This document shows, piece after piece, positions 13,682 through 39,695 of a stretch of 64,000 nt of DNA. Below the pieces are notes generated by a model that worked only from the letters and a program-made list of their open reading frames with translations, was not told the origin of the DNA and did no database searches. The translations under genes and the position numbers were made by a program. Location of the stretch: NCBI RefSeq assembly GCF_001975665.1, contig NZ_CP019419.1:3269501-3333500 (forward strand), written 5' to 3'. The stretch's first letter is position 1. The number at the start of each line of letters is the position of its first letter. Source of the DNA: Polaribacter reichenbachii. GTDB lineage: Bacteria; Bacteroidota; Bacteroidia; Flavobacteriales; Flavobacteriaceae.

Positions 13682-15535
13682 CTAATATAATGGATTAACA
13701 GTGGTTATAGTGTAAGATTCTAAATCTATTTTAAAATGATTAGCGGGTTTGCCATTCATAGTTTTTAAAAATATGGTAGCCCAAAGCTTTAATTCTTTAT
13801 GATTAGATTTCTTTAAGCTATTACAAAGCTCTTTATAAGCCTTTAAACGAGGTTTTTTAATATCTGTAAAAGCCAATTTATCGGCGCTTCTGAGCTTGTA
13901 AAAATCATTAATCATATCTAAACCTGTCCAATTTTCAAAAGAAACTAAACTTAAATTTTGTTTATTTAATTCGGCTTCATTTTTAAATGCTTTTAATAAT
14001 AAATCTTTACCTGTAGCATTTAACATAACCTTTTTAAAGGCTTCTGGCCAATCGCTTTTTAAAAAACGTAAGCGTACTAATTCTTCTAAATGCCAAGTTG
14101 TAAATTCTTTATAGGTTTTTGCTTTTAAAACGTCTTTATTCCAAATTACAGCATTATTTTTAGACGACAAATATTCGTGTTCTTGCTTATACAACGGAAA
14201 TAACGAATTAAAATTAGGAACAGCATCTATAACAATAGTTTCCACCTCAAAATTAGAATGCGACTTAAGTGTAAGTAATTTATATCCTGGAATGTATGCT
14301 GCTAATGATGGTATTTGAATGTTTATAAGTGACTTTCCGTTCTTAAAATTTCGAATCCCAGTATCATTAATGTGCATATGCCCCCCAAAATGAACCTTTA
14401 CGCCTGCCTCTGAAAGTGCTTGAGCAACGGTATGGTTTGGCACTCTGTGTAACTGCATTTTATTGGCTCCAAATAGCGCTTTCATTTCTGATGTAGCATC
14501 ATCATTAAAATCGACCATTGGGTAATGGCTAAATACAATTAGGGTTTTACCTAAATCATTTGCTCTTTTAGTTACAGATTTAATCCATTTTAGTAAATGT
14601 ACTTTATGGGTTAAAACATTATTGTAACCAATACTTGCGCCATTAAAATTCTCGGGATTATTATTGTTTTCATTAAGCATTTCCTTTGGAACATAAACAT
14701 TAGCATCTATAGCCAAAAACCATAAATTATCGGCAGGTTCAACTAAATACGAAACATCAGGAATAGTTTGTTGTGTTTCTGGTAATTTATATGTTCTATT
14801 AGTTATTTCAGCTTGTTTTTCTGCTTCCTTAAAATCATAATTTTTATAGGAATAGTTGGTAAATGGTGTTTCCCAATACACATCGTTTTTTTTAGGAAAG
14901 AAACCAAAATCTTTTAATTCGTTTAACACACCTTGGTAACCCAACTTCGCAATATCTTCTGTTATTACCGGTTCTAAATCATCTTCGGTTTTTTGTGTAA
15001 ATAGCTCTCGTTTGCTAAAAATTGCTTGAGATTTCCCTCCTATACCTAAAAAATCGATTTTTCCGGCATCTTGATAAAAGGGTTTTACAGGATCGTGATT
15101 TCCTGTGGTGGTTATAAACTGAATGTCATACTTTTCGCGGTAGCTATTCAGAATTCGTTTTAATCCTCTAATATTTATTAGTTGTCCATCGTCGCTAAAA
15201 TCGCCAGGTAATACCACATATTTAACACCGCGTTTTGCCACATCGTCTAAAGCTGCTAAAAAAGCAAAATAGTTTTCGTTAAAAAGCCTCGTAGATTTTA
15301 ACTGCGCTCCCATAGTTCTGGCTAAGGTGTATTTTCCTGTTAAAGGGTTTAAAACACCGTTATAATCATTATCTTGAAAACTGCCATAAATATCCCCCAA
15401 ATGCACATCGGATAAGAATGCGATTTTAATATTTGCTTCTTTGTTATCGTTCTTTTTATGGCAAGCTGTTAAAATAAACAAAAGGACTAATAAGCCAGGT
15501 AAAGCATTTGAAAAATTATTTTTAGTCATTTTCAT
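13682..15535 (-). CDS. Calcineurin-like metallophosphoesterase lipoprotein
   Basis: Encodes 617 residues. A lipoprotein signal (LVLLFILTAC, Cys about residue 25) is followed by all five metallophosphoesterase blocks: IAFLSDVHLGD, VVLPGDFSDDG, TTGNHDP, FSHYPM and FGGHMHIND. The fold hydrolyses phosphomonoesters or diesters with two metal ions. The protein is long for the family: large insertions lie between the GNHD and SHYP blocks, and about 200 C-terminal residues follow the GHMH block. It is probably anchored in the periplasm or at the outer membrane. It lies 105 bp downstream of the GH115 gene and upstream of the regulator, so it belongs to the PUL. A phosphoesterase is unusual in a plain polysaccharide locus and suggests a phosphate-bearing glycan such as an inositol-phosphate glycan (inference). 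Confidence 0.88.
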   Translation of the reverse strand: MKMTKNNFSNALPGLLVLLFILTACHKKNDNKEANIKIAFLSDVHLGDIYGSFQDNDYNGVLNPLTGKYTLARTMGAQLKSTRLFNENYFAFLAALDDVAKRGVKYVVLPGDFSDDGQLINIRGLKRILNSYREKYDIQFITTTGNHDPVKPFYQDAGKIDFLGIGGKSQAIFSKRELFTQKTEDDLEPVITEDIAKLGYQGVLNELKDFGFFPKKNDVYWETPFTNYSYKNYDFKEAEKQAEITNRTYKLPETQQTIPDVSYLVEPADNLWFLAIDANVYVPKEMLNENNNNPENFNGASIGYNNVLTHKVHLLKWIKSVTKRANDLGKTLIVFSHYPMVDFNDDATSEMKALFGANKMQLHRVPNHTVAQALSEAGVKVHFGGHMHINDTGIRNFKNGKSLINIQIPSLAAYIPGYKLLTLKSHSNFEVETIVIDAVPNFNSLFPLYKQEHEYLSSKNNAVIWNKDVLKAKTYKEFTTWHLEELVRLRFLKSDWPEAFKKVMLNATGKDLLLKAFKNEAELNKQNLSLVSFENWTGLDMINDFYKLRSADKLAFTDIKKPRLKAYKELCNSLKKSNHKELKLWATIFLKTMNGKPANHFKIDLESYTITTVNPLY

Positions 15536-15640
15536 AAATTATAATAAAAACAAATTACTTGAAATTTTACTGTTTTAAAAGCAAACTTAATATTTATTAA
15601 TCTTAATCAGTTTTAAATATGGTAGCTTATTTTAGGCGAT

Positions 15641-18622
15641 TTAATTTATTATTTTTGTTTCCTTAGGAAAAGCATAGCTCGATTTCCAACCGCCTAAGTC
15701 TATTAAAATTTGATCTAACATTACGCCAGGATCTACCATCCAAACTTTTAAAGTATGTTTTCCGGCTTTATTTACAATTTGGGACACCTTTTGTACTGCG
15801 GCGTTTTTAAGTACATTTTGTTTCCATATATCACTACGTCCAAAGGTTTGAAAATTTACAATAACAGGCGCTGCATTATCTATGGCAACTGCCACACGCA
15901 CGCCATATTCTGCATGAGGTGCATGCGTAGGTACCGCTTGAAGATTTACGGCTACTTCACCAAAATTAAAGCTATAAAAATCGTATTCTAAAACAGGGCT
16001 ATGCTTTAAAATATCGGCTATATTCACCACTGGTTTTGCGTTTCTTGGTAATGTTGTTATCACATTATTGGTATATCCTAAACCTTCAAAAACAGTCCAA
16101 TTAGCTGCTTTACCTTTTTCCTTTCGGGTGAAATGTTCTGCGTTAATAGACACATATCCTTTATCTTCAACAAAACCGTTGTAGTTTTTTAAGTCTTCGA
16201 ATTTAGGATTGTAAACTGAAACGCCAATGCTTGTTGTTTTTCCTTCGGATATAAAATCGATGGCACTATTCACTTTAAAACTAGGCGGAATTAACTGAAA
16301 ATCGTGACCAAGTGGGGCTTCCTTTTTATTTTCACCTTTGGGCACTTTATCCCAATCTATACTAACCCAAATACGTTTTTCGGGTGTACCTGAAGCTGAG
16401 TTTAGCGTACCTTTACTTTCCGATAATTTAATCCAATCTACTTTTGGTTTTGCTTCCCAATTAATACTGCCACTCCCCTTTACAAAAACATCTATAAAGT
16501 AAGTGCTGTTGGTATAGCTATTAAACACAGGTAAAACATCGGCATAACTATTTACAATTTTATCATTCACTTCCATTTGATAACCTTCTAAGGCCAAACC
16601 TAAAGTTGCTTGCTCTTCGGTTTCAATATGTGAGGTTGCAGGTTGTGAGAAAACAGGTAAAAAACGCGGTGTCATGGTCATAATATGGTTCCATTTTCCG
16701 TTTTGTAGTTCTGTATTATAATAATTGGTTTCTTTTTCTATGCGTTTAAACGCCGCTCTAGATAAATCGCCAAAGGTATTTGCACTTACTCGACCTTGTT
16801 TTGCCGTAAATTTATTTTTAAAACTATATAACCATTTCTCATTTAGTTTTGATGCTCCAATTATGGGGTAATATACCAACTGATAGAAAGCATCTTTACG
16901 ATTATTGCGTATGGTTTTGTATAAATCCTCGGTGGTTTTAACTAGTTTTTTATGACTATCAATACGTGCTGAAACCTCATCACTATAATGAAATTGAGTT
17001 AACTCGGTTTTGCCTGCTTTAGTTACAGGTTCTACTTGACTCCATGCCATAAACTCAGGGCGTCTAATATAAGATAACCTGTTATTTTCGTATAAAACAT
17101 TGGTGATTTCTGTGGCAGATTCGGTTCCAAATTCTCTTGTTGCCCAAGTATTCATATGTGTTTTTACGGCTGTACTTTTTTCAAAATTATCCATATTCCA
17201 GGCCATGTCTAAAAATAACTCTATGCTGTACTCATGAGGTTTAATATCACCACAATTTAGAATCCATAAATCTTTTGATTTAAACTCGAAAGCTTTCGCC
17301 ATTTCTTCCCACATTAAAACAGGGTTTGAAGAGTTTAACCATAAATAATCATGTGGTCTTCCCCAATACGATGTATGGTAGTAAACACCCGCACCACCTT
17401 TACGTTTTTGCTCTTCCGGATTACTTAATTGACGTATATAACCATAGTTATCATCGGTCCAAACTAGCGTAATATCTTCAGGTAAGTTTAGTCCGCTTTG
17501 GTAATAATTTAAGACCTCTTTATAAGGTACAAAAGCTTGTGGAGTAGTTGTTGGATCTTTTTTAGTTTCTTGTTTTAAAATAGCTCTTTGATCTCTAATA
17601 ACGCGCTCTAAAAGTTTTACTTGTGAGTCGGTATCATCTTCACCAACAATCATTGGCGAATCATGTTCACCACGCATACCAACTGTATAAATACCATCGT
17701 ATTTTGCGGTTTCTTTAGCTCGTTTTTTAAATAATTTTTTAATCACTTCAGCATTGGTATCATATCGATATTCTCCCATAGCTTCATGATCCCATTCGGT
17801 GTTTATATTGCTTAACATAGGTTCTGCATGCGAGCTACCTATAACAATGGCATAATTGTCTGCCACCACTTTATTTTCTGGGTAATGGTAAAAGGCTTTG
17901 GTACTTTTATGCATTGCAGGCCAAATGGTGTTAGCGCGTAAACGCAGTAATAATTCAAATACTTTGGCATAGGTTTTTGGACCAATATCACCCGTTTCTG
18001 GTTCGTAATTTAAAGCAGCCCAACGTTGCAAACCCCAATCTTCATCATTTAAAAATACACCTCTATATTTTACCGAAGGTTCTCCATATATTTTTGAATT
18101 GATAGTTAGTACTAACTCCTCTTTTTTATCGGGGGTAACATCGGCCCACCATTCCCAAGGCGAAACGTTTAACATTCTGGATACTTCTAACAATCCATAT
18201 GCCGTTGCTCTTCTATCGGATCCCACAATAACCAAGGCTTTGTCAATGCCTTTTAAAGGGTTGTCTACAACTTCAATTTTATAAGTCTCCCATTTTCCTT
18301 GTACTTGAGAAACCTCTATTTTTTGTTTTGAAACTAAATCATCAATCCATTTACTTTTGCCCAAGGTTCCAGCAATAATGGAAAACTTACCAACGGTGTT
18401 TATCTTAATCGTTTTATTAGAAATATTTTGAATATCGCGCACTAAAATACGAGCAGCAATGTCTACTACTTTAGCATCCTTTTTATCGATTAGAATACTT
18501 GCTTTTACTTCTGCAGAAACAATAGTAAACAACTGTTGTGCATCTAAATTATTCGACAAAACAAGGAACAACAATAGCAGACTATGATACTTAGTTTTAA
18601 ACATTTTATTTGTTTTTTTCAT
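15641..18622 (-). CDS. GH115 family glycoside hydrolase, probable alpha-glucuronidase
   Basis: Encodes 993 residues with a signal peptide (LLLLFLVLSNNLDAQQ); the ATG at 18604 is an alternative start. GH115 enzymes release alpha-linked glucuronic or 4-O-methyl-glucuronic acid. Family features: an N-terminal GH20b-like alpha/beta domain (IVGSDRRATAYGLLEVS, SPWEWWADV), then the barrel with RGVFLNDEDWGLQRWA, LRANTIWPAMHKSTKAF, IGSSHAEPML, MRGEHDSPM and VWTDDNYGYIR. Helical and beta-sandwich C-terminal domains follow (about 690-990, with INAEHFTR and a malectin/CBM-like end). It lies one base after the acetyltransferase gene. A shorter homologue is encoded at 50564-53023. Xylan enzymes are absent nearby, so the target need not be glucuronoxylan. 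Confidence 0.93.
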   Translation of the reverse strand: MKKTNKMFKTKYHSLLLLFLVLSNNLDAQQLFTIVSAEVKASILIDKKDAKVVDIAARILVRDIQNISNKTIKINTVGKFSIIAGTLGKSKWIDDLVSKQKIEVSQVQGKWETYKIEVVDNPLKGIDKALVIVGSDRRATAYGLLEVSRMLNVSPWEWWADVTPDKKEELVLTINSKIYGEPSVKYRGVFLNDEDWGLQRWAALNYEPETGDIGPKTYAKVFELLLRLRANTIWPAMHKSTKAFYHYPENKVVADNYAIVIGSSHAEPMLSNINTEWDHEAMGEYRYDTNAEVIKKLFKKRAKETAKYDGIYTVGMRGEHDSPMIVGEDDTDSQVKLLERVIRDQRAILKQETKKDPTTTPQAFVPYKEVLNYYQSGLNLPEDITLVWTDDNYGYIRQLSNPEEQKRKGGAGVYYHTSYWGRPHDYLWLNSSNPVLMWEEMAKAFEFKSKDLWILNCGDIKPHEYSIELFLDMAWNMDNFEKSTAVKTHMNTWATREFGTESATEITNVLYENNRLSYIRRPEFMAWSQVEPVTKAGKTELTQFHYSDEVSARIDSHKKLVKTTEDLYKTIRNNRKDAFYQLVYYPIIGASKLNEKWLYSFKNKFTAKQGRVSANTFGDLSRAAFKRIEKETNYYNTELQNGKWNHIMTMTPRFLPVFSQPATSHIETEEQATLGLALEGYQMEVNDKIVNSYADVLPVFNSYTNSTYFIDVFVKGSGSINWEAKPKVDWIKLSESKGTLNSASGTPEKRIWVSIDWDKVPKGENKKEAPLGHDFQLIPPSFKVNSAIDFISEGKTTSIGVSVYNPKFEDLKNYNGFVEDKGYVSINAEHFTRKEKGKAANWTVFEGLGYTNNVITTLPRNAKPVVNIADILKHSPVLEYDFYSFNFGEVAVNLQAVPTHAPHAEYGVRVAVAIDNAAPVIVNFQTFGRSDIWKQNVLKNAAVQKVSQIVNKAGKHTLKVWMVDPGVMLDQILIDLGGWKSSYAFPKETKIIN

Positions 18623-18623
18623 G

Positions 18624-19769
18624 TTATAGTTTTATATAAATTCGCTTTTTGTGCAACCACCAACCCATAGACCAACAAAGCATCGTAAATGCAATGGCCG
18701 TTAAAAAAGCACCAAAACTTCCAGGACATATTTTTTGAAAAACATGTTGACTTACCCACTCAAAAACATCTAATCTGGATGCTGTTGGTATTAATCGTAA
18801 AGTGATGTAAAACAATTCGGAAAACAGGTAAATAAACAGCGGATTTTTCCCAAACACATTAAAAAATTCGGTGCCTCTGGTTTTTTTTTTTAGTTCGATA
18901 GCATAAATTAAAATTGCCATAACCGATACATCGATACCAACGGTAAGAAGCACAAACGAACTTGTCCATAATTTTTTGCTAATTGGAAAAACTAAATCCC
19001 ACCAAAAGGCTAAAGCGGCTAATAAAAAACCAAGCATTAATAACTTAGCAATACCTTCGAAAGATTTACCTTTCTGCTGAATAAATCGCCCCGCTAAAAA
19101 TCCTACGATAACATTTACTACCGATGGTAACGTGCTTAAAAGACCTTCGGGATCGAAAGGAATGCTGTCTTTTTTATAAATATGTCCTTCTCCTAAAATG
19201 GCTAAGTCTAATTTAGTAATAGCGTTTGTTGCCATTTCTAATTCTAAACCTGGTACACCGAATACATATAAAAGCCCCCAATACGCCAATAAAATAATTA
19301 CTGATATTACTATGACAATCTTAGGTTTTAAATAGTAAAATAACACGGAAGCCATAAAATAACACAGGGCTATACGTTGCAAAACGCCCATAATTCTAGT
19401 TTCGGAAATAGGTTTTAATTCTAAACTGCCATTTACACCCGTTCTAAAAAACGGAAACCAGTACATTAAATACCCAATAAGAAATATTAAAACCGTTCGT
19501 TTTAATACTTTTTTCCAGAATACGGTGGCAGATCCCGTTTTCAATTTTTCCATAGAAAAACTCATGGCGTTTCCCATGGCGAATAAAAACGAAGGGAAAA
19601 CCAAATCTGCTAGTGTAAAACCAAACCATTGTGCATGCACTAAATACGGATAAAGGTCTGCGCCTGTACCTGGTGTATTTACCACAATCATTAAAAAAAT
19701 GGTAAGGCCTCTAAAAACATCAAGAGACAAAAATCGGTTAGATTTTGTTATAGAAGTCTCTGTCATCAT
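18624..19769 (-). CDS. HGSNAT-like membrane acetyltransferase (DUF5009/DUF1624 type)
   Basis: Encodes 381 residues with about 10 membrane segments and no cleavable signal. The N-terminus NRFLSLDVFRGLTIFLMIV and the block H45-AQWFGFTLADLVFPSFLF match the heparan-alpha-glucosaminide N-acetyltransferase family. In human HGSNAT the equivalent histidine (in HATWNGLTVADLVFPWF) carries the acetyl group from cytosolic acetyl-CoA across the membrane onto terminal alpha-glucosamine; here it is H45. The gene abuts the GH89 gene (no spacing), so the two products probably act in turn: N-acetylation of a terminal alpha-GlcN makes it a substrate for GH89. Activity on this substrate is inference from homology and gene order. 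Confidence 0.88.
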   Translation of the reverse strand: MMTETSITKSNRFLSLDVFRGLTIFLMIVVNTPGTGADLYPYLVHAQWFGFTLADLVFPSFLFAMGNAMSFSMEKLKTGSATVFWKKVLKRTVLIFLIGYLMYWFPFFRTGVNGSLELKPISETRIMGVLQRIALCYFMASVLFYYLKPKIVIVISVIILLAYWGLLYVFGVPGLELEMATNAITKLDLAILGEGHIYKKDSIPFDPEGLLSTLPSVVNVIVGFLAGRFIQQKGKSFEGIAKLLMLGFLLAALAFWWDLVFPISKKLWTSSFVLLTVGIDVSVMAILIYAIELKKKTRGTEFFNVFGKNPLFIYLFSELFYITLRLIPTASRLDVFEWVSQHVFQKICPGSFGAFLTAIAFTMLCWSMGWWLHKKRIYIKL

Positions 19770-21995
19770 TTAATAATTGTATTGAATAGGTTGCATTTTA
19801 GCGGTAATAGGCTGAATACGATTTCTGTATTTTTTGTGTAATGCCTTAACAACTTCTCGAGCGTTCCCTTGGGCTGTTACAGGAAAATCTTTTCGGGCGG
19901 TTACCCAATTCCATTCCCATTTTTTTATAGTTTTATCGAATGCATTTTGATCAAAATTGTTCCAATCTTTTTTAACGGTGGCAAAAAACTGTTCCCATCT
20001 TGGTTTGTAAAAATCAGAAAGTAATCCGCTCCATTGTCGGTTGCTGTACTCATGCAATCTATTATTAGCATCTCCCCACAGCGTAATTAAATCTCTTGCA
20101 TTTTGTTCGTAAAGTGCTTTTTCTTGTTCGGTTTGCCCCCAACTTCTCGCATCGGCAATCCAAGGACCTAACAAGAAATCTTTTCGGGTGCCTAAAAGCG
20201 TATCCATATCATCAATTAAGGCGATAAATTCGTTACTATATTTATCAAAATCGGCTTTATTATTTGCCCTGTACGCTGTAGTTATTTGCTGTTGCAATGG
20301 CAATGCGTAGTTTGCTAGAACTTGTCGGGTTACATCGACTAAATCGTATTCAAAACCATCCGAATCTTTATGTAACGGTATTGTTTTTACAAACAAATCC
20401 CAAGCGGGTAATAAATCTTCTGGTGCATAATTTAGTTTGGTTCTAGCCCATCGTCTATAGCCTTCAAAAGTAGGTCTTGCCACAATAATAGATTCGGCAC
20501 CATCACGAATTACTTGTCCGTTGTAAACGGTTTTCACCATAATATCCCAAGCTTTCAAAATGTCTGTATTCGATTGCCCATAACGGTTTAAAGTATAGCG
20601 CTCTAACCAAGTTTTTAAATCTATTGGTGTATCTCGCCAGGTGTTATCGGTCATTAATTCATATAAAACAGGATTTTGCTCAATAGATTCCATGGTTAAT
20701 CCAATTCCTTTTAACTTGCCGGCATGGGCATTATTTAAAGCTTTGGCAGGTTCATTGGCAACGGTTTCTATACGCCCAAACATACTAATATTACCACCAA
20801 AACTGTGTAACATATTCCAAATCCATTGCTTTCCGTAAAAGGCTTCGGTACGTTTCCAAACCGGTTCTATTTCTGAGGCTAAATCGAGAATAATCATTTT
20901 ATCGTCTGGAACAGGCGTTAACAAACCCTTAATTTGTGGTGCTTGCCAAAAATCTCTATGACTGTAAAACAGCCACCCTTGCATCACCCAAACGGCATCG
21001 GGATCGGCAGATTTCATACCTTCATAAACCTTACTACTTAAATTAGATAAATATTCGGGGTCGTTAGAGGGCGGTGTATTTTCATTAAATGTATCGGCAG
21101 AATACAAATGATCTGTGCCGTAAATACGTTGTTGGCTTTCTAAGAATTTCTTTCCGATTTCAGCAAATAACGGATCGTTAGCATCTAAAATATACGTATC
21201 AGAAAAATCGTTTCCCCAATTGGTTTGTTTTAAATTAGCTTCTGGAAAAAAAGTTTTAAAAGACGCAGGAACATGCCCTGTAAACGCCGGTAAAACAGGT
21301 TTCATACCTAATGCTCTTTCGCGTTTTAAAATCTTTATTTGTAAATCGCGGTGCGTGTCTTTCCAATGTTGCGATAACGGACCGCCCCAACCATCTAAAT
21401 TTCCCATCCAAAACCACGAAAAATAAGCTGGCCCACTAAAAAAAGTACTTAAATCGGCATCTGTAAAACCATAAGACTTATAAACTTCGTCCCAAATATA
21501 CTCTTCGCCTGTAATGGCTAGAGGCATATTAATACCGTGTAAAGCCATCCAATCGATTTCTTTTTCCCAACGTTCCCAATCCCACCAACTCATAGTGTAA
21601 TTAAACGTACAGTAGTTTAAATAATAGCGGTATTCGTAAGGTGTTTTTTTATGAACTAGTGTTTTTAAAGCAGGTAGTTTTTTGGGTAAGTTAAGGTTTG
21701 TACCATTCCAAGTAATTTGGCTATTTGTGTATTCTTTTAAATAATAATAAAAAGCAGAAGCAATAGAAACGCCGTTATTACCTCGTAAAATAATTTTATC
21801 GTTTTTAGATTCAATTTCAAACCAATCTTCTTCTTCCGAAATTTTATCAATTTCTACAATAAACTGCGAAGCATGGTTTGGCGCAATACGTTTTATAAGC
21901 GCCATTTCTGGTAATTCGGTATTGGTAGCTTGCTTTTCTTTTTTACAAGAAACAAACAGTACAAAAACAAAAAACAGGCTTATACTTAACTTCAT
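19770..21995 (-). CDS. GH89 family alpha-N-acetylglucosaminidase
   Basis: Encodes 741 residues with a lipoprotein-type signal (LFFVFVLFVSC). It is a full-length homologue of human NAGLU: an N-terminal alpha/beta domain, a TIM barrel with YRYYLNYCTFNYTMSWWDW and WMALHGINMPLAITGEEYIW, and an all-helical C-terminal domain. Catalytic residues by alignment with the family: E305 in SADTFNENTPP (acid/base) and E436 in GLTMESIEQNPV (nucleophile). The enzyme removes terminal alpha-linked GlcNAc by a retaining mechanism. It lies 5 bp after the GH2 gene and directly abuts the acetyltransferase gene, inside the PUL operon. Known substrates of the family are heparan-type and mucin-type GlcNAc-alpha termini; the natural substrate here may differ. 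Confidence 0.95.
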   Translation of the reverse strand: MKLSISLFFVFVLFVSCKKEKQATNTELPEMALIKRIAPNHASQFIVEIDKISEEEDWFEIESKNDKIILRGNNGVSIASAFYYYLKEYTNSQITWNGTNLNLPKKLPALKTLVHKKTPYEYRYYLNYCTFNYTMSWWDWERWEKEIDWMALHGINMPLAITGEEYIWDEVYKSYGFTDADLSTFFSGPAYFSWFWMGNLDGWGGPLSQHWKDTHRDLQIKILKRERALGMKPVLPAFTGHVPASFKTFFPEANLKQTNWGNDFSDTYILDANDPLFAEIGKKFLESQQRIYGTDHLYSADTFNENTPPSNDPEYLSNLSSKVYEGMKSADPDAVWVMQGWLFYSHRDFWQAPQIKGLLTPVPDDKMIILDLASEIEPVWKRTEAFYGKQWIWNMLHSFGGNISMFGRIETVANEPAKALNNAHAGKLKGIGLTMESIEQNPVLYELMTDNTWRDTPIDLKTWLERYTLNRYGQSNTDILKAWDIMVKTVYNGQVIRDGAESIIVARPTFEGYRRWARTKLNYAPEDLLPAWDLFVKTIPLHKDSDGFEYDLVDVTRQVLANYALPLQQQITTAYRANNKADFDKYSNEFIALIDDMDTLLGTRKDFLLGPWIADARSWGQTEQEKALYEQNARDLITLWGDANNRLHEYSNRQWSGLLSDFYKPRWEQFFATVKKDWNNFDQNAFDKTIKKWEWNWVTARKDFPVTAQGNAREVVKALHKKYRNRIQPITAKMQPIQYNY

Positions 21996-22000
21996 TTCTT

Positions 22001-26897
<4,897 letters not shown>

Positions 26898-26925: not shown

Positions 26926-27492
26926 TTACTTTTCTGCAATGGTAGTTAATGTACAATTTACACCCAAAGGATTTTTTGCAATTTTACAAATTAACGGAAA
27001 CTCGGGGTTATTTAAAATCCATAATTCGGTTTCATCAATCTCTGCTTTTACAAACAAAACATCTACAACTTTACCATCTATAACCACTTCGTTTGCAATT
27101 TTAGTTTTATCTAAATTATAGGTTGTGTTGTTATAAACGAACTTGTTGTGAGTTACCAAATCGGAAAAAGCCGATTTAGAAATCATAAAAAAAGTATCGG
27201 TGGGCGCTAAAGTTAATATTTCTGGTGATTCCCCTTGATTAAAACTTAAACCTGTACCGTTACTTAATGCTTCTGGCAAAATAGCGTACGTTCGTTTTAT
27301 TTTACGTAAATCCCAATCTATAATTAGTGTATCGCCCACAAAAGTAGGACGTAAATTTACCGGTCTTGTTTGTCCGTACAATTTACAAATATATTGCAGT
27401 TCTGTGTTGTTTGTTATCTCTGGAATATGCCCTTGCGCTTGTCCTGTATTATATAGTAAGCAACCAATGGCAAAAAGAATTATTTTTTTCAT
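26926..27492 (-). CDS. Unknown secreted protein of the PUL
   Basis: Encodes 188 residues with a signal peptide (ILFAIGCLLYNTGQAQG), so periplasmic or surface-exposed. I do not recognise a family. The mature part is beta-rich with alternating hydrophobic strands (TLIIDWDLRKIKRTYAI, DTFFMISKSAF, VVIDGKVVDVLFVKAEI) and a pattern of aspartates and threonines but no evident catalytic motif. One cysteine pair (IC near the N-terminus, IC/NC near the C-terminus) could form disulphides. It lies 3 bp downstream of a GH92 gene and 28 bp upstream of the GH28-like gene, so it is co-transcribed with the enzymes. A glycan-binding or accessory role is plausible but not shown. Confidence 0.75.
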   Translation of the reverse strand: MKKIILFAIGCLLYNTGQAQGHIPEITNNTELQYICKLYGQTRPVNLRPTFVGDTLIIDWDLRKIKRTYAILPEALSNGTGLSFNQGESPEILTLAPTDTFFMISKSAFSDLVTHNKFVYNNTTYNLDKTKIANEVVIDGKVVDVLFVKAEIDETELWILNNPEFPLICKIAKNPLGVNCTLTTIAEK

Positions 27493-32128: not shown

Positions 32129-32203
32129 TCGTTTATAAAGCTATGATGATTTGGGGTTTGGATAAGTATTATATATCCTTTAACAATAGTATCAATTATT
32201 TTA

Positions 32204-32241: not shown

Positions 32242-32294
32242 TATATTCAAATAAAAACCTAATTCAAATTAACTAATTCTATATATTTTTTTTA

Positions 32295-33920
32295 TTAATT
32301 ATAATCTGGATTTTGTGTAATGCTACCACTTGTAAGATCTATTTCTTTTTGAGGAATTGGTCTTAATAAGTGTTTTGATTTTAAAGCATTGTTTAACGCT
32401 GCGTGTGGATTGTGCATTAAAGTTCTTTCAATTAATTTTCCAGTTCTTTTTAAATCCATCCATCTGTTAACTTCACCAGTTAATTCTCTAGCTCTTTCAT
32501 CTAATATAAAATCTAAAGTAACCTCCGCATTTGTTACTGCTGTAGTTAAGCCAGCTCTTGATCTTAAAGTTGTAAGATGTGCTGCAGCTGTACTTATTTC
32601 AGATGCTTTAAAACGTGCTTCTGCTGCAATTAAATATGCTTCACCAGATCTCATAATTACCATATCTCTTTCTCCTTGAGAAGATTGATCTGGTTGTGTA
32701 AATGGAACTCCTGGATCATCGAATTTTGTAAATTGAGGATATTGAACAATTGTAATACCATCACTATCAAAATAAGTTCCTGGGTTAATTACTGCATATG
32801 GTACTGCATCAATTTCAGCTTGTGTCCAAACTGTTTTTGGAAAAAAGATAGCTAGTTCTCCAGCAGACATTGCTTCACCATTTTTACCAGTATAGTCTTC
32901 AGTTGCATAGATTTCTCTTGTAAAAGTTGCATCTGCTCTTTCATCTGCATCATCAAAAAGACTATAGTAGAAAGGGGTTGGCATTGGGCCTAATCCTTTT
33001 ACAGTTCTAGATAAACCTGGATAATCAAAAAATCTAAATTTATATAACATATGTCTTGAATTTCCCCAACCTCTACTCACAGAACTATTACCAAATAAGT
33101 ATGAGAAAACAACTTCAGAATTTCTTTGGTTATCAATACTAACTAAATTCGAAAAAGATGGTACTAAAGGATGATTAGTAATTACACTTTCTGCCAATAC
33201 AGCAGCGTCTTTAAAATCTGTTGCACCTGCAAATGTTTTATATCCTCTAGTTAAAAGTACCTTAGATCTAAGATGTCTTACAGCGTCTTTTGTTACTCTA
33301 CCATATTCACTTACTGAGCTAGGAACATTTGTTAAAGCATCATCTAAATCTTGAAGAATTTGTGTATAAACGGCCTCTTCACTTGCTCTAGAATAATCTG
33401 TGTCTGCATTAGATATTTGATTTAATACTAATGGTACACCACCATAATTTTCAACTAAATTAAAATAAGACATAGCTCTAAAAAACTTAGCTTCACCAAT
33501 ACCAATAGATTTGGTATTTGCATCTACACCTTGAATTAAATCTGCATTATCAATAGCAATGTTTGCAGCAGAAATAATGCCGTATTGATTAGACCAATAT
33601 ACACCAACAGCCCAGTTTAATGGCGTAAAGTTTACATAATCGTTTACATCATCTATACCAGAGATAGAGGTTCCTCTTGTAACAATATCTGTTCCAAGGT
33701 CTTCTAAAGCATAGTATAAATTTGAAGTATAACGAGTAGAACTTTCTCTAGAACGTTGATAAACAGTAGCTACCAATTGGTTAAAAGTTTCTGGTTTTGA
33801 ACTAGCGTTCTCTATACTTAGAAAAGAATTGTTTTCCTCTTCTAAGTAGCTTTCGCAACTGGTACCTAACATACCAAGTGAAAGTAGTATTATAATTAAT
33901 CTATAATTTATATTTTTCAT
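32295..33920 (-). CDS. susD: SusD/RagB-family glycan-binding lipoprotein
   Basis: Encodes 541 residues with a lipoprotein signal (IILLSLGMLGTSC, Cys about 23). The fold is shown by the SusD-like N-terminal TPR region (ISAANIAIDNADLIQGVD, IGEAKFFRAMSYFNLVENYGGVPLVL). The RagB C-terminal end has MRSGEAYLIAAEARFKASE, LDFILDERARELTGEVNRWMDLKRTGKL and the final LLRPIPQKEIDLTSG. It sits on the outer membrane over the SusC pore and captures the glycan. It lies 28 bp downstream of the susC gene and is certainly co-transcribed with it. The sequence does not reveal its ligand. Confidence 0.96.
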   Translation of the reverse strand: MKNINYRLIIILLSLGMLGTSCESYLEEENNSFLSIENASSKPETFNQLVATVYQRSRESSTRYTSNLYYALEDLGTDIVTRGTSISGIDDVNDYVNFTPLNWAVGVYWSNQYGIISAANIAIDNADLIQGVDANTKSIGIGEAKFFRAMSYFNLVENYGGVPLVLNQISNADTDYSRASEEAVYTQILQDLDDALTNVPSSVSEYGRVTKDAVRHLRSKVLLTRGYKTFAGATDFKDAAVLAESVITNHPLVPSFSNLVSIDNQRNSEVVFSYLFGNSSVSRGWGNSRHMLYKFRFFDYPGLSRTVKGLGPMPTPFYYSLFDDADERADATFTREIYATEDYTGKNGEAMSAGELAIFFPKTVWTQAEIDAVPYAVINPGTYFDSDGITIVQYPQFTKFDDPGVPFTQPDQSSQGERDMVIMRSGEAYLIAAEARFKASEISTAAAHLTTLRSRAGLTTAVTNAEVTLDFILDERARELTGEVNRWMDLKRTGKLIERTLMHNPHAALNNALKSKHLLRPIPQKEIDLTSGSITQNPDYN

Positions 33921-33948
33921 ATTTCTTAAATTTAATTTAATGAATAAT

Positions 33949-36900
33949 TTAGAAGCTTAAGTTTACACCAGTCATAAAAGTACGAGACATAAATGCTGCT
34001 CCGTATTGGTTTCTTCCTGCATTTTCAGGATCCCATCCATCATAATTTGTAAATACAAAAGGATTTTGAACTGTAGCGTAAATTCTAAATTTGCTAACTT
34101 TAAATTTGTCTAAAATTGTTGATGGTATTTGGTAACCTAAAGTTATATAACCAACTTTAGTAAAAGAAATGTCTTTATATTGAATTGCATGCCCCCAAGG
34201 ACCTGGGTTTCCTGGTTGATTCCAATCATTAGATTGGTTTTCTGGTGTCCAATAATTTACATTATAACCGTTAAAAGTTCTATTTGGTTCTTCTTGCCAG
34301 CCCCAAGCGTAATTACTATGAAAATTACTTCTCATTTTAGCACCTTGACTTGTATTTATCATAAAAGAAAAATCGAAATTTTTATAGTTTAAAGTACTTG
34401 TAAAACCACCTGTCCATTTTGGTGTAACTTGTCCTATAACTTTTCTATCTGCAGATGTAATATCTCCACTACCATCTACATCTGTAACTTTAACTTGACC
34501 AGGAAGTTGATCGTAAGTTGCAGCCTCAGCAGCTTCATCTAACTGCCAGATACCTGCATATTCATAATCAAATATTGCACCAATAGGTTCGCCAACTCTA
34601 TGAATTAGACTTGTACCACCGACGTTAAAAAAGATATCTTGATCTTTTGCAAGTTTTGTTAACTCATTTTTATTAGATGCAAAATTAAAGTTTGTAGTCC
34701 ATCTTAAATCACCATTATCAATATTAGTAGTATTTAAAGAAATTTCTATTCCTTGGTTTGTAGATTCTCCAATGTTTTCAAAAATTGAATAAAAACCAGT
34801 TAAAGAAGGTAATTCTTTACCAAAAATTATATCTGTATTTTTTCTGTTGTAAAGATCTATAGAACCACTAATTTTATTGTCTAAGAAGCCATAGTCAAAC
34901 CCAATATTTACCTCAGTTGTTCTTTCCCAAGAAAGGTCTTTATTAGCGATACCTGTAATATATGCTGTAGATACAGAAGAATCTCCTAAATTTGTAGCAT
35001 CAGCACCTAATAAAGATTGTGAAGAAAGTGGAGCCAAACCACCTCCTTGACCGTTGTTACCTGTTTGACCATAACTAAGTCTTAACTTAGCATTAGAAAA
35101 AACTTGTTGATCATGCATAAAATCTTCTTCGATAATTTTCCAAGCAAATGCAGCTGAAGGGAAAAATGCCCATTTGTTATCTGCTGCTAAAATTGAAGCA
35201 CCATCATATCTACCAGTTACTGTAAATAGGTATTTATCTAAAAAGTTATAGTTAATTCTACCCGTATAAGATTCTAAAGTTTGTTTAGAAAAACCACTAG
35301 ATACATCTCTAATATCTAAACCAGCTCCTAAATTATAGAATGTAAAGTCGTCTGTTGTAAAGTTTCTTACTTGATTGTTATAGTACTCAGATCTTTCTAA
35401 AAATCTAGACATAACAGCTGTAATATCTAAAGCATGATCCGCTTTTTCAAATTTATAATTAAAAATATTATCCCAAGAATAAGAAAAATAGTTTCTGTTT
35501 TGTACTACAGCTCTTCTGTTAGAAGCATTTCCACTTACACTTTTTGTTAATAGTCCACGAAATTCACCATATCTTTCATACTTTAAATTTGGTGAGAATT
35601 TAGAAGTTATTGTTAAACCTTTTGTAGGTTTTATTTTTAAGGCAATATCTCCTATAAATTGTAAAAATTTAGTTTCTCTAGTATCGTTTTTTGTATCTAA
35701 AATTGGATTTGTAATTTGAGTTTCTTTGTTCGTTGGAAAAAAACGTAAACTACCATCATCATTATAAGGTAATCCAATTGGTTTTAAACGAACAGCACTT
35801 CTAAAAGCTTCTAAACTACCTTGATTTTGTATAGCAGTTGTTATATAATTGCTTATACTTAAATTTAACCAATTTGTTAAATCGCTATTTAAACTACTTC
35901 TTAGATTATATCTTGTATAATCCTCACCCTCTACATTTCCTTCGTCTTTAGTATATGCTAAACCTGCAGAATATGTAGTTTTGTCGTTACCGCCACTTAA
36001 TCCTAAAGTATGATTAGATTGAAAACCATTTTTAACAATTAAGTCTACCCAATCTGTACTTACTCCATTAGCTACATTGTTTAATTCTTCTGCATCAAAA
36101 ATATTGTCTGAAGCTAAATTTACATCACTTGCTCTATAGTTTATATTACCAGAAGCAAATTGTCTACCAACCGCTACATCTTTAATAAATTGTACATATT
36201 CTTGTCCGTTATATAAAGAAGGCATGTGGTAAGCCTGTTTAAATCCTGCATAATTACTGTATTCTATTCTTAATTTTCCATTTTTACCACGTTTAGTTTC
36301 AATTAAAACCACACCGTTACTTCCTCTAGAACCATAAACAGCTGTTGCAGAAGCATCTTTTAGAATATCCATTCTATTAATATCTGCAGGATTTAAGAAA
36401 GAAATATCATCAACAAAAATACCATCTACAATAAATAAAGGATTTTGCCCTGGGTTAAAACCTCCACTATCTGATGTGTTAATTGTACTTGCACCACGAA
36501 TACGAATATTAAAACCACCTGAACCTGGTTTGTTATCTGTTCGTTGAATTACCACACCCGCAGCTTGTCCTTGAAGAGCTGAAACTGCATCTACTTTATT
36601 GGTTTGTTGTATTGTTTTAGTACCAATTGAATTAACAGATCCTGTTAAATCGCTCTTTTTAACAGAGCCATAACCAATAATAACAATCTCATCTAATTGC
36701 GCTGAATCTTCTTTTAGTGTAACATTAAGAGTTTTACCTCCTTTATAAGTTACCTCTAAAGTCTTATAACCTATGTATGAAAACATAAGTACATCGCCTT
36801 CTTTAGCCTTAATCTTGAAGTTTCCATCAAAATCTGTAGCACTACCAACAGAACTTCCTTTTACCAAGATATTTACACCAGGTAAAGGATTATCTAAGAC

Positions 36901-36993
36901 ATCTTTTACAATACCAGAGATATTGTCTTGTGCCCAAGAAATCGACGAAAAACATAGCGACATAGCTATTAATAAAATTTTAAGTTTTTTCAT
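33949..36993 (-). CDS. susC: SusC/RagA-family TonB-dependent outer-membrane transporter
   Basis: Encodes 1014 residues: signal peptide (CFSSISWAQ), carboxypeptidase-regulatory-like domain (about 22-100, SGIVKDVLDNPLPGVNILVK), a TonB-box-like stretch (LDEIVIIGYG), plug domain (FNIRIRGASTINTSD, NPLFIVDGIFVDD, VYGSRGSNGVVLIETKRG) and a 22-strand barrel ending GVNLSF. It imports oligosaccharides across the outer membrane with energy from TonB-ExbBD and pairs with the SusD lipoprotein encoded next. It is the first gene of the PUL operon. Its promoter contains the locus operator at 37075-37089 and it is divergent from the inositol oxygenase gene. Confidence 0.96.
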   Translation of the reverse strand: MKKLKILLIAMSLCFSSISWAQDNISGIVKDVLDNPLPGVNILVKGSSVGSATDFDGNFKIKAKEGDVLMFSYIGYKTLEVTYKGGKTLNVTLKEDSAQLDEIVIIGYGSVKKSDLTGSVNSIGTKTIQQTNKVDAVSALQGQAAGVVIQRTDNKPGSGGFNIRIRGASTINTSDSGGFNPGQNPLFIVDGIFVDDISFLNPADINRMDILKDASATAVYGSRGSNGVVLIETKRGKNGKLRIEYSNYAGFKQAYHMPSLYNGQEYVQFIKDVAVGRQFASGNINYRASDVNLASDNIFDAEELNNVANGVSTDWVDLIVKNGFQSNHTLGLSGGNDKTTYSAGLAYTKDEGNVEGEDYTRYNLRSSLNSDLTNWLNLSISNYITTAIQNQGSLEAFRSAVRLKPIGLPYNDDGSLRFFPTNKETQITNPILDTKNDTRETKFLQFIGDIALKIKPTKGLTITSKFSPNLKYERYGEFRGLLTKSVSGNASNRRAVVQNRNYFSYSWDNIFNYKFEKADHALDITAVMSRFLERSEYYNNQVRNFTTDDFTFYNLGAGLDIRDVSSGFSKQTLESYTGRINYNFLDKYLFTVTGRYDGASILAADNKWAFFPSAAFAWKIIEEDFMHDQQVFSNAKLRLSYGQTGNNGQGGGLAPLSSQSLLGADATNLGDSSVSTAYITGIANKDLSWERTTEVNIGFDYGFLDNKISGSIDLYNRKNTDIIFGKELPSLTGFYSIFENIGESTNQGIEISLNTTNIDNGDLRWTTNFNFASNKNELTKLAKDQDIFFNVGGTSLIHRVGEPIGAIFDYEYAGIWQLDEAAEAATYDQLPGQVKVTDVDGSGDITSADRKVIGQVTPKWTGGFTSTLNYKNFDFSFMINTSQGAKMRSNFHSNYAWGWQEEPNRTFNGYNVNYWTPENQSNDWNQPGNPGPWGHAIQYKDISFTKVGYITLGYQIPSTILDKFKVSKFRIYATVQNPFVFTNYDGWDPENAGRNQYGAAFMSRTFMTGVNLSF

Positions 36994-37034
36994 TCTAATT
37001 TGTTTAGTTAAAAATATTTGTTATAATCTTTTGT

Positions 37035-37089
37035 TAAAATTATGGTTAATGATTCTTATTATTATGGATATATTATTCAAAAGGATGGA
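37035..37089 (-). promoter_or_regulatory. PUL operator and -7 box for susC
   Basis: Minus-strand TCCATCCTTTTGAAT (37089 to 37075), then exactly 32 nt, then TAATTTTA (37042-37035), a near match to TAnnTTTG, 41 nt before the susC ATG. A second TCCAT begins 21 bp after the first (37068), a direct repeat two helical turns apart as expected for a dimeric AraC-type regulator such as the HTCS. Confidence 0.75.
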
Positions 37090-37131
37090 AATTTATCAAT
37101 AACTAAAAAAAAGATATAATTATTTAATTAA

Positions 37132-37186
37132 TCCATATTTTTGAATTTTTAATCCATATAGATATTCTTGGTGTATGCTAATTTTG
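37132..37186 (+). promoter_or_regulatory. PUL operator and -7 box for inositol oxygenase
   Basis: Plus-strand TCCATATTTTTGAAT (37132-37146), then exactly 32 nt, then TAATTTTG (37179-37186), a full match to the Bacteroidetes -7 box TAnnTTTG, 35 nt before the ATG at 37222. A second TCCAT begins 21 bp after the first (37153). Together with the susC site this makes a divergent control region. Confidence 0.78.
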
Positions 37187-37221
37187 ATAGTATTAGGCTA
37201 TTAACAATTAAAACATATATC

Positions 37222-38100
37222 ATGGGAAATCTAACCAATAAGAACACTTCTAACCCAATGGATAATATTGATGATTGGGAAGAAAATTTAAAAGAACGTT
37301 ACCCAGATCCTGAAACACCAATTAAAGAAAAAGAAGAATTTAGAAACTATGTAGATTCTGAAAGATTAGAAACTGTAAGAGAATTTTACAGGATAAATCA
37401 TGAATTTCAAACTTATGATTTCGTTTGTAAAAAGGAAGAAGAATTTCTAAAGTTTGATAAAAAAGAATTGTCATTATGGGAAGCTATAGATTTTTTAAAC
37501 ACTTTGGTAGATGATAGTGATCCGGACATCGATTTAGATCAGTTTCAACATTTATTACAAACTTCAGAAGCAATAAGAGCAGATGGTCATCCAGATTGGT
37601 TTGTTTTAACAGGCTTTATTCATGATATGGGTAAAGTTTTATGTCTGTTTGGCGAACCACAATGGGCAGTTGTTGGAGATACATTTCCTGTAGGTTGTAA
37701 ATTTTCTGATAAAATAGTGTATCCTGAGTTTTTTGCAGCAAATCCAGATTCTACAAACGAAAAATACAATACTAAGTATGGTGTTTACTCTCCTAATTGC
37801 GGACTTGATCATGTAAAAATGAGTTGGGGACATGATGAATATTTGTATCAGATAATGAAAGATTATTTACCAGAACCCGCATTGTATATTATTAGGTATC
37901 ATTCTTTTTATTCTCAGCATAGAGAAGAAGCGTATTTGCATTTAATGAATGAAAAAGATATTGAAATGTTTGAATGGGTAAAGAAATTTAATCCTTATGA
38001 TTTATATACAAAAGCACCTGTAAAACCAGATGCAGAAGCTTTGAGACCTTATTATGAAGAACTAGTTAAAAAATATTTACCAAATAAATTAAACCTTTAA
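37222..38100 (+). CDS. miox: myo-Inositol oxygenase (MIOX)
   Basis: Encodes 292 residues from the chosen ATG (MGNLTNKN); an ATG at 37168 lies in the promoter region upstream of the -7 box and is unlikely. The enzyme cleaves myo-inositol with O2 to D-glucuronate using a di-iron centre in an HD-like fold. It shows near-complete agreement with animal MIOX. The iron ligands are seen in [12 protein letters not shown] (His), [13 protein letters not shown] (His-Asp), [11 protein letters not shown] (His), [10 protein letters not shown] (His) and [11 protein letters not shown] (Asp). Substrate loops [18 protein letters not shown] and [12 protein letters not shown] are also kept. It is cytosolic. It lies 23 bp upstream of a sodium:solute symporter gene and is divergent from susC with a shared operator type, so inositol is probably a product of this PUL. 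Confidence 0.95.
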
Positions 38101-38123
38101 TAATAACCAAACCAACCTTTACA

Positions 38124-39695
38124 ATGTTATTTACTTATTTAGGCTTTTTCGGATTTACTTTATTCGTTATACTTTACACAACTTATAAACTTCGAAAAGA
38201 TAAGTTTACAACTACAAAAGGTTATTTTTTAGCCGGTAAAAGTTTAACAGGGCCCATTATTGCTGGTTCTATGATATTAACCAATATTTCTACCGAACAT
38301 TTAATTGGTATGAATGGTAGTTCTTATAAAAACGGAATTATTATAATAGCTTGGGAAGTTACATCAGCAATTGCATTGGTTATTGCTGCTATCTTTTTTA
38401 TTCCGAAGTTTATTAAAATGGGGTTAACTACAATTCCAGAATTCTTAGAAAGGCGTTTTGATGGTGCTATCAGGTCTATAGTAGCATTTTTATTAATGTC
38501 TTCTTTTGTGGTTACCTTACTACCTATAGTATTGTATTCTGGTGCTATTAATATTGAAAGTGTTTTCGATTTTTCTTTAATGTTTAATATTTCTAAAGAA
38601 CAATCTTTAATATATACAGTTTTAGTAATAGGAATTATTGGTTCTCTTTATGCAATTTTTGGTGGATTAAAAGCTGTAGCATATTCAGATTCTTTAAACG
38701 GAATTGGTTTAATGTTAGGTGGTTTATTAATACCTATTATTGCACTTTACCAAATAGGAGAAGGAGATATGTTTAGCGGTTTAACAACTGTTTACAATTT
38801 TGCACCAGATAAGTTTGATATTATAGGGAAACCAGATTCTGTGTTGCCTTTTTCGGTATTATTTACCGGTTTAATGATAAACCAGTTGTATTTCTGGGGA
38901 ATGAATCAAGCAATTATACAAAGAGCTTTTGGAGCAAAAAATTTAGTAGAAGCACAAAAAGGATTAATTTATACCGGAGTTTTAAAGTTATTTGTGCCTG
39001 CAATTATTGTATTACCAGGTCTTATAGCTTATTATTACTTTCAAGACCAATATTATGAAACGCCAGATTTAATTTATCCGCTTTTGGTTAAAAAAGTATT
39101 ACCTACATATTTATATGGCTTTTTTGCTGCAGTTATTTTAGGAGCTGTATTAAGTACATTTAATAGTGTGTTAAATTCTGCAAGTACAATTTTCTGTCTA
39201 GATATTTATAAAAAAATAATTAATAAAAACGCTTCAGACCCTAAATTGGTTAAATTTGGTAAAATTTCTTCTGTAGTTTTAGCCTTAATTTCTATTGCTG
39301 TAGCACCTATGGTTGCTTATGCACCAGAAGGTTTATATCAATTATTACAACAATTAAATGGTATATTTTTTATACCAATTTCATCTATAATTATTGCTGG
39401 TATATTTTTTAAACAAATAAATACTTTAGGCGCTAAAGTGGGTCTTTTCTTTGGTTTTGTATTCTATATTTTATCAACATTTATATTGAATATAGACATC
39501 CATTTTGTCCATTTATGGGGAATAGAATTTGTTTTAAACTTTATAATTATGTTTTTAGTTTCTCACTTTTACCCATCAAAAGAACAAATAAAATACAAGG
39601 AAGAAAAATCAGAAGAAAAATCTTGGTCTTATGTTAAACCAGCAGGTTTTATACTAGTTTTCTTAACCATCTTAATTTATATTTTACTTTCTTAA
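38124..39695 (+). CDS. Sodium:solute symporter (SSS/SLC5 family), possible inositol or sugar transporter
   Basis: Encodes 523 residues with about 13-14 membrane helices and no cleaved signal, in the inner membrane. SLC5-family features: GYFLAGKSLTGPIIAGSMIL at helix 1, LTNISTEHLIGMNGSSYKNG, ITTIPEFLERRFDG-type loop after helix 2, GLKAVAYSDSLNGIGLMLGG and MNQAIIQRAFGAKNLVEAQK. SLC5 transporters couple sodium to uptake of sugars, myo-inositol and related solutes. Encoded directly after MIOX and surely co-transcribed, so uptake of myo-inositol (or of glucuronate) is the likely job, by context only. Confidence 0.9.
   Translation: MLFTYLGFFGFTLFVILYTTYKLRKDKFTTTKGYFLAGKSLTGPIIAGSMILTNISTEHLIGMNGSSYKNGIIIIAWEVTSAIALVIAAIFFIPKFIKMGLTTIPEFLERRFDGAIRSIVAFLLMSSFVVTLLPIVLYSGAINIESVFDFSLMFNISKEQSLIYTVLVIGIIGSLYAIFGGLKAVAYSDSLNGIGLMLGGLLIPIIALYQIGEGDMFSGLTTVYNFAPDKFDIIGKPDSVLPFSVLFTGLMINQLYFWGMNQAIIQRAFGAKNLVEAQKGLIYTGVLKLFVPAIIVLPGLIAYYYFQDQYYETPDLIYPLLVKKVLPTYLYGFFAAVILGAVLSTFNSVLNSASTIFCLDIYKKIINKNASDPKLVKFGKISSVVLALISIAVAPMVAYAPEGLYQLLQQLNGIFFIPISSIIIAGIFFKQINTLGAKVGLFFGFVFYILSTFILNIDIHFVHLWGIEFVLNFIIMFLVSHFYPSKEQIKYKEEKSEEKSWSYVKPAGFILVFLTILIYILLS

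Follow-up and report, generated by a model that had tools for sequence, protein, structure and literature searches.

A PUL-type locus built around myo-inositol oxygenase in Polaribacter reichenbachii and its probable inositol phosphate glycan substrate

Which glycan is addressed by a polysaccharide utilization locus (PUL) whose glycosidases are encoded side by side with a phosphoesterase, an inositol oxygenase and a sodium:solute symporter? The question is raised by a 64,000-nucleotide stretch of the Polaribacter reichenbachii genome (contig NZ_CP019419.1, positions 3,269,501 to 3,333,500; hereafter, the window), in which the genes at 8164-39695 amount, judged by their parts, to a PUL whose recurring core is unusual. 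The unit resembles other Bacteroidota PULs in that a SusC/SusD pair, a hybrid two-component system (HTCS) and mostly exported exo-type glycosidases are united in one locus. It differs from them in having a core of myo-inositol oxygenase (MIOX), the symporter (SSF family), a metallophosphoesterase (MPE), an α-glucuronidase of glycoside hydrolase (GH) family 115 and, in many relatives, a phosphoinositide phospholipase C (PI-PLC, PF16670), rather than a backbone depolymerase, and in the lack of any known endo-xylanase or polysaccharide lyase (the GH28 enzyme could be endo- or exo-acting). The unit is likely to serve the use of an inositol phosphate glycan. More specifically, it is probably a PUL-type system for inositol phosphate glycans that bear glucuronic acid (GlcA), above all glycosyl inositol phosphorylceramide (GIPC) head groups from plants or algae. 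These we consider, with reasonable confidence, to be the best single substrate. GIPCs are among the most abundant plant sphingolipids and, to our knowledge, their microbial breakdown is poorly described; they are membrane lipids and not polysaccharides, and few PUL-type systems would be expected to target them.

Gene content of the unit

The unit comprises the following genes and motifs (coordinates of the window, strand, identification):

8164-9486, minus: FucP-type sugar:H+ transporter of the major facilitator superfamily (MFS), NCBIfam TIGR00885 (L-fucose:H+ symporter FucP) at 493.6 bits, above the cut-off of 280.4
9562-9574, minus: operator-like motif upstream of the MFS gene, one mismatch to ATCCATNTTTTTG
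9588-13637, minus: HTCS sensor/regulator with an AraC-type domain (Pfam Reg_prop, HisKA, HATPase_c, Response_reg, HTH_18), with relatives of 56-71% identity near MIOX elsewhere
13682-15535, minus: lipoprotein MPE, a probable phosphodiesterase for inositol phosphate
15641-18622, minus: GH115 α-glucuronidase of the MIOX-linked clade (phylogenetic tree; Pfam catalytic and C-terminal domain profiles both above cut-off, 435 and 153 bits)
18624-19769, minus: HGSNAT/NagX-like transmembrane acetyltransferase, NCBIfam NagX at 169.6 bits, under the cut-off of 480
19770-21995, minus: GH89 α-N-acetylglucosaminidase (Pfam NAGLU 494 bits, plus the N- and C-terminal domains, each of the three above cut-off)
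22001-25270, minus: GH2 LacZ-type β-galactosidase, NCBIfam Bga2A at 1035.7 bits (cut-off 999)
25299-26897, minus: GH28 (Pfam Glyco_hydro_28, 78 bits); the best NCBIfam model, BT4146 rhamnogalacturonidase, scores 279 bits, under its cut-off of 500
26926-27492, minus: 188-amino acid secreted protein, adjoining a GH92 gene in relatives
27496-29763, minus: GH92 α-mannosidase (a), Pfam 469 bits
29771-32128, minus: GH92 α-mannosidase (b), Pfam 449 bits
32295-33920, minus: SusD-like binding lipoprotein, Pfam SusD_RagB 104 bits
33949-36993, minus: SusC-like TonB-dependent importer, NCBIfam TIGR04056 at 843.5 bits (cut-off 368)
37130-37159, plus: operator-like direct repeat, AATCCATAT at 37130 and 37151, with an exact ATCCATNTTTTTG at 37131-37143
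37222-38100, plus: MIOX, type I, Pfam MIOX 368.7 bits
38124-39695, plus: SSF (SLC5-type) sodium:solute symporter, a probable inositol importer, NCBIfam PRK10484 at 679 bits (cut-off 401)

All genes from the MFS to SusC, including the HTCS, the six GH genes and the adjacent SusC/SusD pair (32295-36993), lie on the minus strand; MIOX and the symporter run divergently from them and are followed by two tRNA genes. The open reading frame of MIOX opens at a TTG at 37168, and the ATG at 37222 yields a protein of ∼292 amino acids, which is the median of its homologs. The match to PF05153 exceeds the cut-off of 25 bits by far, and the six presumed iron ligands (four His and two Asp) are conserved in 51 of the 51 loci described below. 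The 188-amino acid protein has no Pfam match at E 0.001 and its structure model (pLDDT 57) is too poor for a fold reading; homologs occur in 11 of the 51 MIOX loci, the window included.

In the initial annotation, the locus was drawn at 13682-39695 and all the families named there, two GH92, GH2, GH89, GH115, the phosphoesterase, MIOX, the symporter and SusC/SusD, are indeed present at the positions given. The GH28 gene, the 188-amino acid protein and the FucP-type MFS transporter were left out, however, and the HTCS, although correctly recognized as a part of the system, lies outside that range. The MFS gene is probably part of the unit because a one-mismatch copy of the motif sits upstream of it. 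The acetyltransferase was described as HGSNAT-like, which holds in the sense of a NagX/HGSNAT-like protein whose scores stay below the cut-offs of both the NagX model and Pfam Acyl_transf_3 (23.3 bits compared with 31).

Conservation and co-occurrence around MIOX

The combination of genes in this unit is beyond chance because a similar set is seen again near MIOX in other genomes. When named genomes were scanned with the window MIOX, 541 related stretches were obtained; only the best 80 were retained, so that the sample is biased to close relatives. For 50 of these 80 loci, the reading was widened to ∼30 kb on either flank as far as the contigs reached; together with the window, they make up the 51 loci to which the counts refer. 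The HTCS, MPE, GH92, GH28, SusC/SusD and SSF genes recur near MIOX across many genera. SSF is found in 49 of the 51 loci, SusC in 48, GH92 in 47, HTCS in 46, MPE in 42, GH115 of either kind in 38 (40 when two contig breaks are counted), PI-PLC in 31, GH28 in 24 and GH89 in 19. In L009 and L013, GH115 and PI-PLC are located on another contig, in one case at the contig start. The locus of Wenyingzhuangia marina (L008) has an order near that of the window, HTCS-MPE-GH115-PI-PLC-NagX-GH89-GH92-GH2-GH28-GH28-GH92-SusD-SusC and then MIOX-SSF, whereas in the window there is no PI-PLC between GH115 and NagX (which are one base apart), GH28 is present once rather than twice, the 188-amino acid protein is added and GH92a has another place in the order. 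Five more type I loci were read to ∼10 kb, and three of them (G287, G246 and G219) contain PUL genes. The window genome, a single contig of 4.13 Mb, encodes a single MIOX, and the gene is rare in the genus, with one occurrence among 35 other congeners (some of these genomes are incomplete), at coordinates identical to those in the genome of locus L042.

A less biased set of 199 Flavobacteriaceae genomes from 198 genera, several of which nevertheless overlap the 50 (for example, G302 and G061 have identical coordinates), allows the associations to be expressed as statistics that treat the genomes as independent, an independence that is incomplete. Type I MIOX was defined by scores over 360 bits and type II by 313-327 bits, with matches below 50 bits assigned to neither type, and PI-PLC was counted only at E under 1e-100, that is, in 17 of the 20 genomes with a match. 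By these definitions, type I MIOX is present in 17 genomes, type II MIOX in 22, full-length PI-PLC in 17 and MPE in 28. PI-PLC accompanies type I MIOX in 11 of 17 genomes, compared with 6 of the 182 others (p=3.5e-10), MPE does so in 12 of 17 compared with 16 of 182 (p=2e-8), and MPE accompanies PI-PLC in 16 of 17 compared with 12 of 182 (p=3e-15). Type II MIOX, which served as the control, has no link to PI-PLC (2/22, p=0.59) and no clear link to MPE (6/22, p=0.07). A symporter mostly 58-65% identical to that of the window sits beside type II MIOX in 11 of the 11 loci read (L204-L214), which points to the window-type SSF as the inositol carrier. One genome with type II MIOX, G113, has SSF, PI-PLC, GH92, NagX (77%), SusC and MPE within ∼27 kb of it, with no GH115 found in that locus. 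The G113 PI-PLC lies outside the main clade of PUL PI-PLCs, so in this locus some of the system may have been put together independently.

The GH115 enzymes linked to MIOX form one clade that is exclusive within the sample. In a quick maximum likelihood tree of 50 rows, 34 rows (33 distinct) fall into this clade (SH-aLRT 100), and all come from MIOX loci, namely 31 from the loci analyzed here (the window among them) and three background rows (L191, L195 and L199, the last of which is the window's own gene again). The other five of the six GH115 genes of the window genome belong to the 16 rows (15 distinct genes) that fall outside it. The small background of 17 rows covers 8 of 80 genomes and consists of Flavobacteriaceae only, with no characterized GH115 placed. 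Two GH115 genes outside the clade, in the window (50564-53023, minus strand, 819 amino acids) and in L014, are not part of the PUL although a MIOX is no more than 30 kb away. The solved enzymes BtGH115A (5by3), the nearest structure, and BoAgu115A (4c90) belong to the same family across most of the length of the window GH115, which differs from them in belonging to a clade that, within this sample and in a tree of the 50 rows without these two, is found only beside MIOX. A GH115 search of plasmid records returned 34 records, all below 60% identity, which were not used further. Divergent GH115-like proteins of ∼690 amino acids (L017, L021, L024, L027 and others) occur in 19 of the 51 loci, in 12 cases together with the main GH115; genes for GFO/IDH/MocA proteins and 3-keto-disaccharide hydrolases are often nearby.

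PI-PLC lies within 10 kb of MIOX in 17 of 81 loci; it is present in 42 of the 50 genomes with named MIOX loci, and within 23 kb of MIOX in 31 of these, compared with ∼0.5 expected under random placement. In the PI-PLC tree, which leaves out locus L237, 33 of the 34 PUL PI-PLCs form a clade (100/99) in which the only additional row, G252, comes from a locus without GH115 or GH92, and the PI-PLCs read outside PUL loci fall outside this clade. Across the class, PF16670 matches are found in 27 of 396 genomes, and in the five loci read of those 27, MIOX, GH115 and GH92 are absent within ∼10 kb of PI-PLC. The PUL enzyme of a relative matches the family at 420 bits, the nearest solved member being the phosphatidylinositol-specific phospholipase C1 3h4w; the PUL forms differ in sitting inside a glycan PUL. 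Most bacterial PI-PLCs attack via the 2-OH of inositol, and in some GIPCs GlcA is attached to O-2 of inositol. Because of this, PI-PLC would, by analogy, need GH115 to have acted first, unless a different hydroxyl is used in this subfamily. In six loci (L028, L036, L037, L038, L042 and L054), PI-PLC is ∼610-620 amino acids long, with some 265 extra N-terminal residues. Flavobacterium species (L222, L223, L225 and L226) possess a separate locus of a SusC-like gene, PI-PLC and MPE (∼50% identity to the PUL forms), around which tblastn found none of the glycosidases of the PUL; this locus is possibly for plain phosphatidylinositol.

The predicted fold of the MPE, in which the metal motif is invariant, is closest to those of calcineurin-like phosphodiesterases, a group that includes Lmo2642, GpdQ, Rv0805 and SMPDL3A/acid sphingomyelinase, with Lmo2642 far better than SMPDL3A (Foldseek E ∼2e-8). 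From these proteins, the MPE differs in being a lipoprotein and in sharing ∼10-19% identity with them.

MIOX and susC share an upstream motif. Counted from 350 bp upstream to 60 bp inside the gene with at most one mismatch, ATCCATNTTTTTG is found at MIOX in 35 of 51 loci, at the nearest SusC in 31 of 48, and at both genes in 12 of the 31 loci where MIOX and SusC have no common intergenic region; for 60 permuted motifs, the respective means are 0.27, 0.45 and 0, and the maxima are 2, 3 and 0. In type II loci (11 of 11), the 5.5 kb surrounding MIOX do not contain the motif. It precedes 46 of 1621 other genes (18 unlabeled, six MFS, five SDR, three each of GH92a, GH92b, GH28 and UxuA, with the remaining labels fewer). 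In the window, the exact match between SusC and MIOX overlaps two half-sites spaced 21 bp apart, and a third match, with one mismatch, is inside the second GH115 gene (51705-51717). A repeat search over the susC and MIOX upstream regions of 24 loci gave a mean of 16.9 of 22, hardly above the shuffled value of 16.5. The positions of the motif suggest that the HTCS may control susC, MIOX-SSF and the MFS gene through a common putative operator.

Outer-sugar modules and candidate substrates

Around the recurring inositol/phosphate/GlcA core, the loci carry exchangeable outer-sugar enzymes, as is evident from the variation of GH89/NagX/GH2, GH29/GH3 and GH125 between loci. A NagX-type gene is present in 19 of the 19 GH89 loci, compared with 1 of the 32 others; GH2 is accompanied by GH89 in 15 of 16 loci and GH29 by GH3 in 12 of 17; and GH89 and GH29 are mutually exclusive, with no locus shared between the 19 and the 17. 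The GH125 α-mannosidase occurs in seven of 51 loci, and 32 of 51 have no GH89 within 30 kb, most of them keeping the MIOX core. By analogy, the pairing of acetyltransferase and GH89 points to a terminal α-glucosamine (GlcN) with a free amine. In the lysosome, HGSNAT and NAGLU perform the membrane acetyltransferase/GH89 step of heparan sulfate breakdown, to which the unit is alike in pairing a membrane acetyltransferase with GH89; it differs in having no heparin lyases, sulfatases or GH88, and in that an α-linked GlcA would be handled by GH115. Sulfatases are found in seven loci, outside the HTCS-to-SusC stretch as drawn.

If the substrate is a GIPC, the following route can be envisaged from the family membership of the enzymes. 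The head group would be freed from the lipid, in many relatives by PI-PLC and in the window genome by the MPE, an unrecognized enzyme or other organisms, and imported by SusC/SusD. The outer sugars would then be trimmed by GH92 (mannose) and GH2 (β-galactose), a terminal α-GlcN would be N-acetylated by the NagX/HGSNAT-like enzyme and the resulting α-N-acetylglucosamine removed by GH89, after which GH115 would take α-GlcA off the inositol and the MPE would open or remove the inositol phosphate. The inositol would enter via the SSF symporter and be converted by MIOX to D-glucuronate, joining the released GlcA in uronate catabolism, with susC, MIOX-SSF and the MFS gene under the common control of the HTCS. 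We lean, if only slightly, toward the stronger proposal that the Flavobacteriaceae possess a locus family dedicated to phosphosphingolipid (GIPC) head groups, with a common GlcA-inositol-phosphate core and exchangeable outer-sugar modules. In that case, the core would consist of the own-clade GH115, the phosphodiesterase, PI-PLC, the inositol symporter and MIOX, and the modules, distributed over three species sets, would be NagX-GH89-GH2 for GlcN/galactose, GH29, often with GH3, for fucose, and GH28/GH125. If the GIPC assignment is true, this recurring and apparently co-regulated gene set would suggest how flavobacteria of many genera recycle the carbon, nitrogen and phosphorus of these lipids, would provide enzymes (an α-GlcA-inositol hydrolase and a head-group phosphodiesterase) with which GIPC glycans can be sequenced and trimmed, and would widen the PUL concept beyond polysaccharides to include membrane glycolipids.

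Two substrates can be set aside because their defining enzymes are missing from the window's unit. The initial annotation considered heparan and xylan to be less fitting, and among the genes at 8164-39695 there are indeed no heparin lyases, sulfatases or GH88, and no endo-xylanase (GH10/GH11) or xylan GH43. Uronic acid-containing plant glycans, such as glucuronoxylan, arabinogalactan or a pectin side chain, with MIOX and the symporter riding along via the common glucuronate route, are an unlikely explanation although not without attraction, given that GH115 and GH28 are classic enzymes for such glycans, that relatives add GH3, GH43, GH51, GH78 and DUF4861, that UxuA, UxaC and SDR genes are present in several loci, some with the motif, and that the window genome has as many as six GH115 genes. 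However, no endo-xylanase or pectin lyase is found among the labeled HTCS-to-SusC genes (a few genes are unlabeled), type I MIOX is statistically associated with both PI-PLC and the phosphoesterase, and the MIOX-linked GH115 clade excludes the other five GH115s of the same genome. Glycans of plant glycosylphosphatidylinositol (GPI) anchors (Man3-GlcN-inositol-phosphate, from arabinogalactan proteins), with GH115, GH28 and arabinose-type enzymes acting on the attached arabinogalactan or pectin, are improbable to about the same degree. GH92, NagX with GH89 for unacetylated GlcN, PI-PLC, the phosphoesterase and MIOX would suit them as well as they suit GIPCs, GH125 would find a role, and the nearest solved GH115 is BtGH115A. 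But every GPI core contains GlcN, and most of the loci without GH89 keep the MIOX core, with GH89 and GH29 never overlapping, so GPI explains the locus family poorly; nor does the GPI core offer a bond for GH115, the clade of which is MIOX-linked throughout the sample. Least probable is another inositol lipid as the main substrate, that is, fungal inositol phosphorylceramides, phosphatidylinositol mannosides or protist glycoinositolphospholipids. GH92, PI-PLC and MIOX would serve for these too, and the outer-sugar enzymes differ between loci (GH29, GH3, GH43, GH51 and GH125), but such lipids are mostly devoid of GlcA, whereas GH115 of either kind is encoded in 38 of 51 loci.

The wider interpretation in the initial annotation, a PUL for an inositol phosphate glycan with α-GlcA, has been strengthened by the PI-PLC in the loci of many relatives, the GH115 clade that is MIOX-only in the sample, the phosphodiesterase-like predicted fold of the MPE and the upstream motif that ties MIOX to susC, a link that bears on the co-induction of these genes considered in that annotation. 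The narrower one, GIPC, is the best fit among the substrates, but is an interpretation that leaves GH28 (24 of 51 loci) without an obvious bond to cleave and has to accommodate the absence of GH115 in cis from seven Flavobacterium loci and from L042. Several other observations likewise weigh against GIPCs or against the unit as reconstructed here. The window genome has no PF16670 match at all, so that head-group release there would have to be explained by the MPE or by neighboring organisms, and VIA-align places cyclic and glycerophosphodiesterases (Rv0805, GpdQ) and purple acid phosphatases above or level with the SMPDL3A/acid sphingomyelinase group as matches to the MPE model. BtGH115A is an arabinogalactan enzyme, and some relatives have enzymes of the cell wall type, namely GH3 in 14 loci (the best NCBIfam model is a xylosidase, with a score of 771 bits that stays below its cut-off of 1250), GH43 in nine (nearest to arabinanase models), GH51 in five, GH78 in 11 and DUF4861 in five. 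Two of the five further type I loci (G226 and G227, ∼10 kb) lack PUL genes. The motif was discovered by eye from recurring matches and counted in the same loci, and its exact form is not enriched genome-wide, with five matches compared with four for the reversed control; the four matches other than that between SusC and MIOX lie inside open reading frames.

Another point on the negative side is that 13 of the 51 loci have no GH115 of either kind within 30 kb. Two of these cases are contig breaks, in three (L015, L031 and L033) MIOX is not accompanied by this PUL, one is L042 and seven are from Flavobacterium; of these seven, five hold a 598-amino acid protein in the GH115 slot, with or without DUF4861 or GH28, and two hold nothing there. 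This probably exported protein (c9; L006:289-2121, minus strand, and L073:1018-2814, plus strand) is found within 10 kb of MIOX in 22 of 81 loci and matches neither a Pfam family under E 0.05 nor an NCBIfam model. As a replacement of GH115, it was dropped from consideration, since four loci (L006, L007, L010 and L022) have both.

Other genes in the window

Farther along the window, at 55552-61596 on the minus strand, a NOV_C-domain protein, an SNF2 helicase, a 462-amino acid unknown protein and a C5 cytosine methylase are encoded consecutively, in an arrangement resembling a defense island; the PADLOC matches of this region to the ZorD, DrmD and MTase models are only partial. Between the unit and the second GH115 gene, at 43512-47725 on the minus strand, a 1096-amino acid protein with an M1-type peptidase domain is encoded beside an ABC transporter ATPase, and this region is flanked by two pairs of sensor kinase and LytTR regulator genes.

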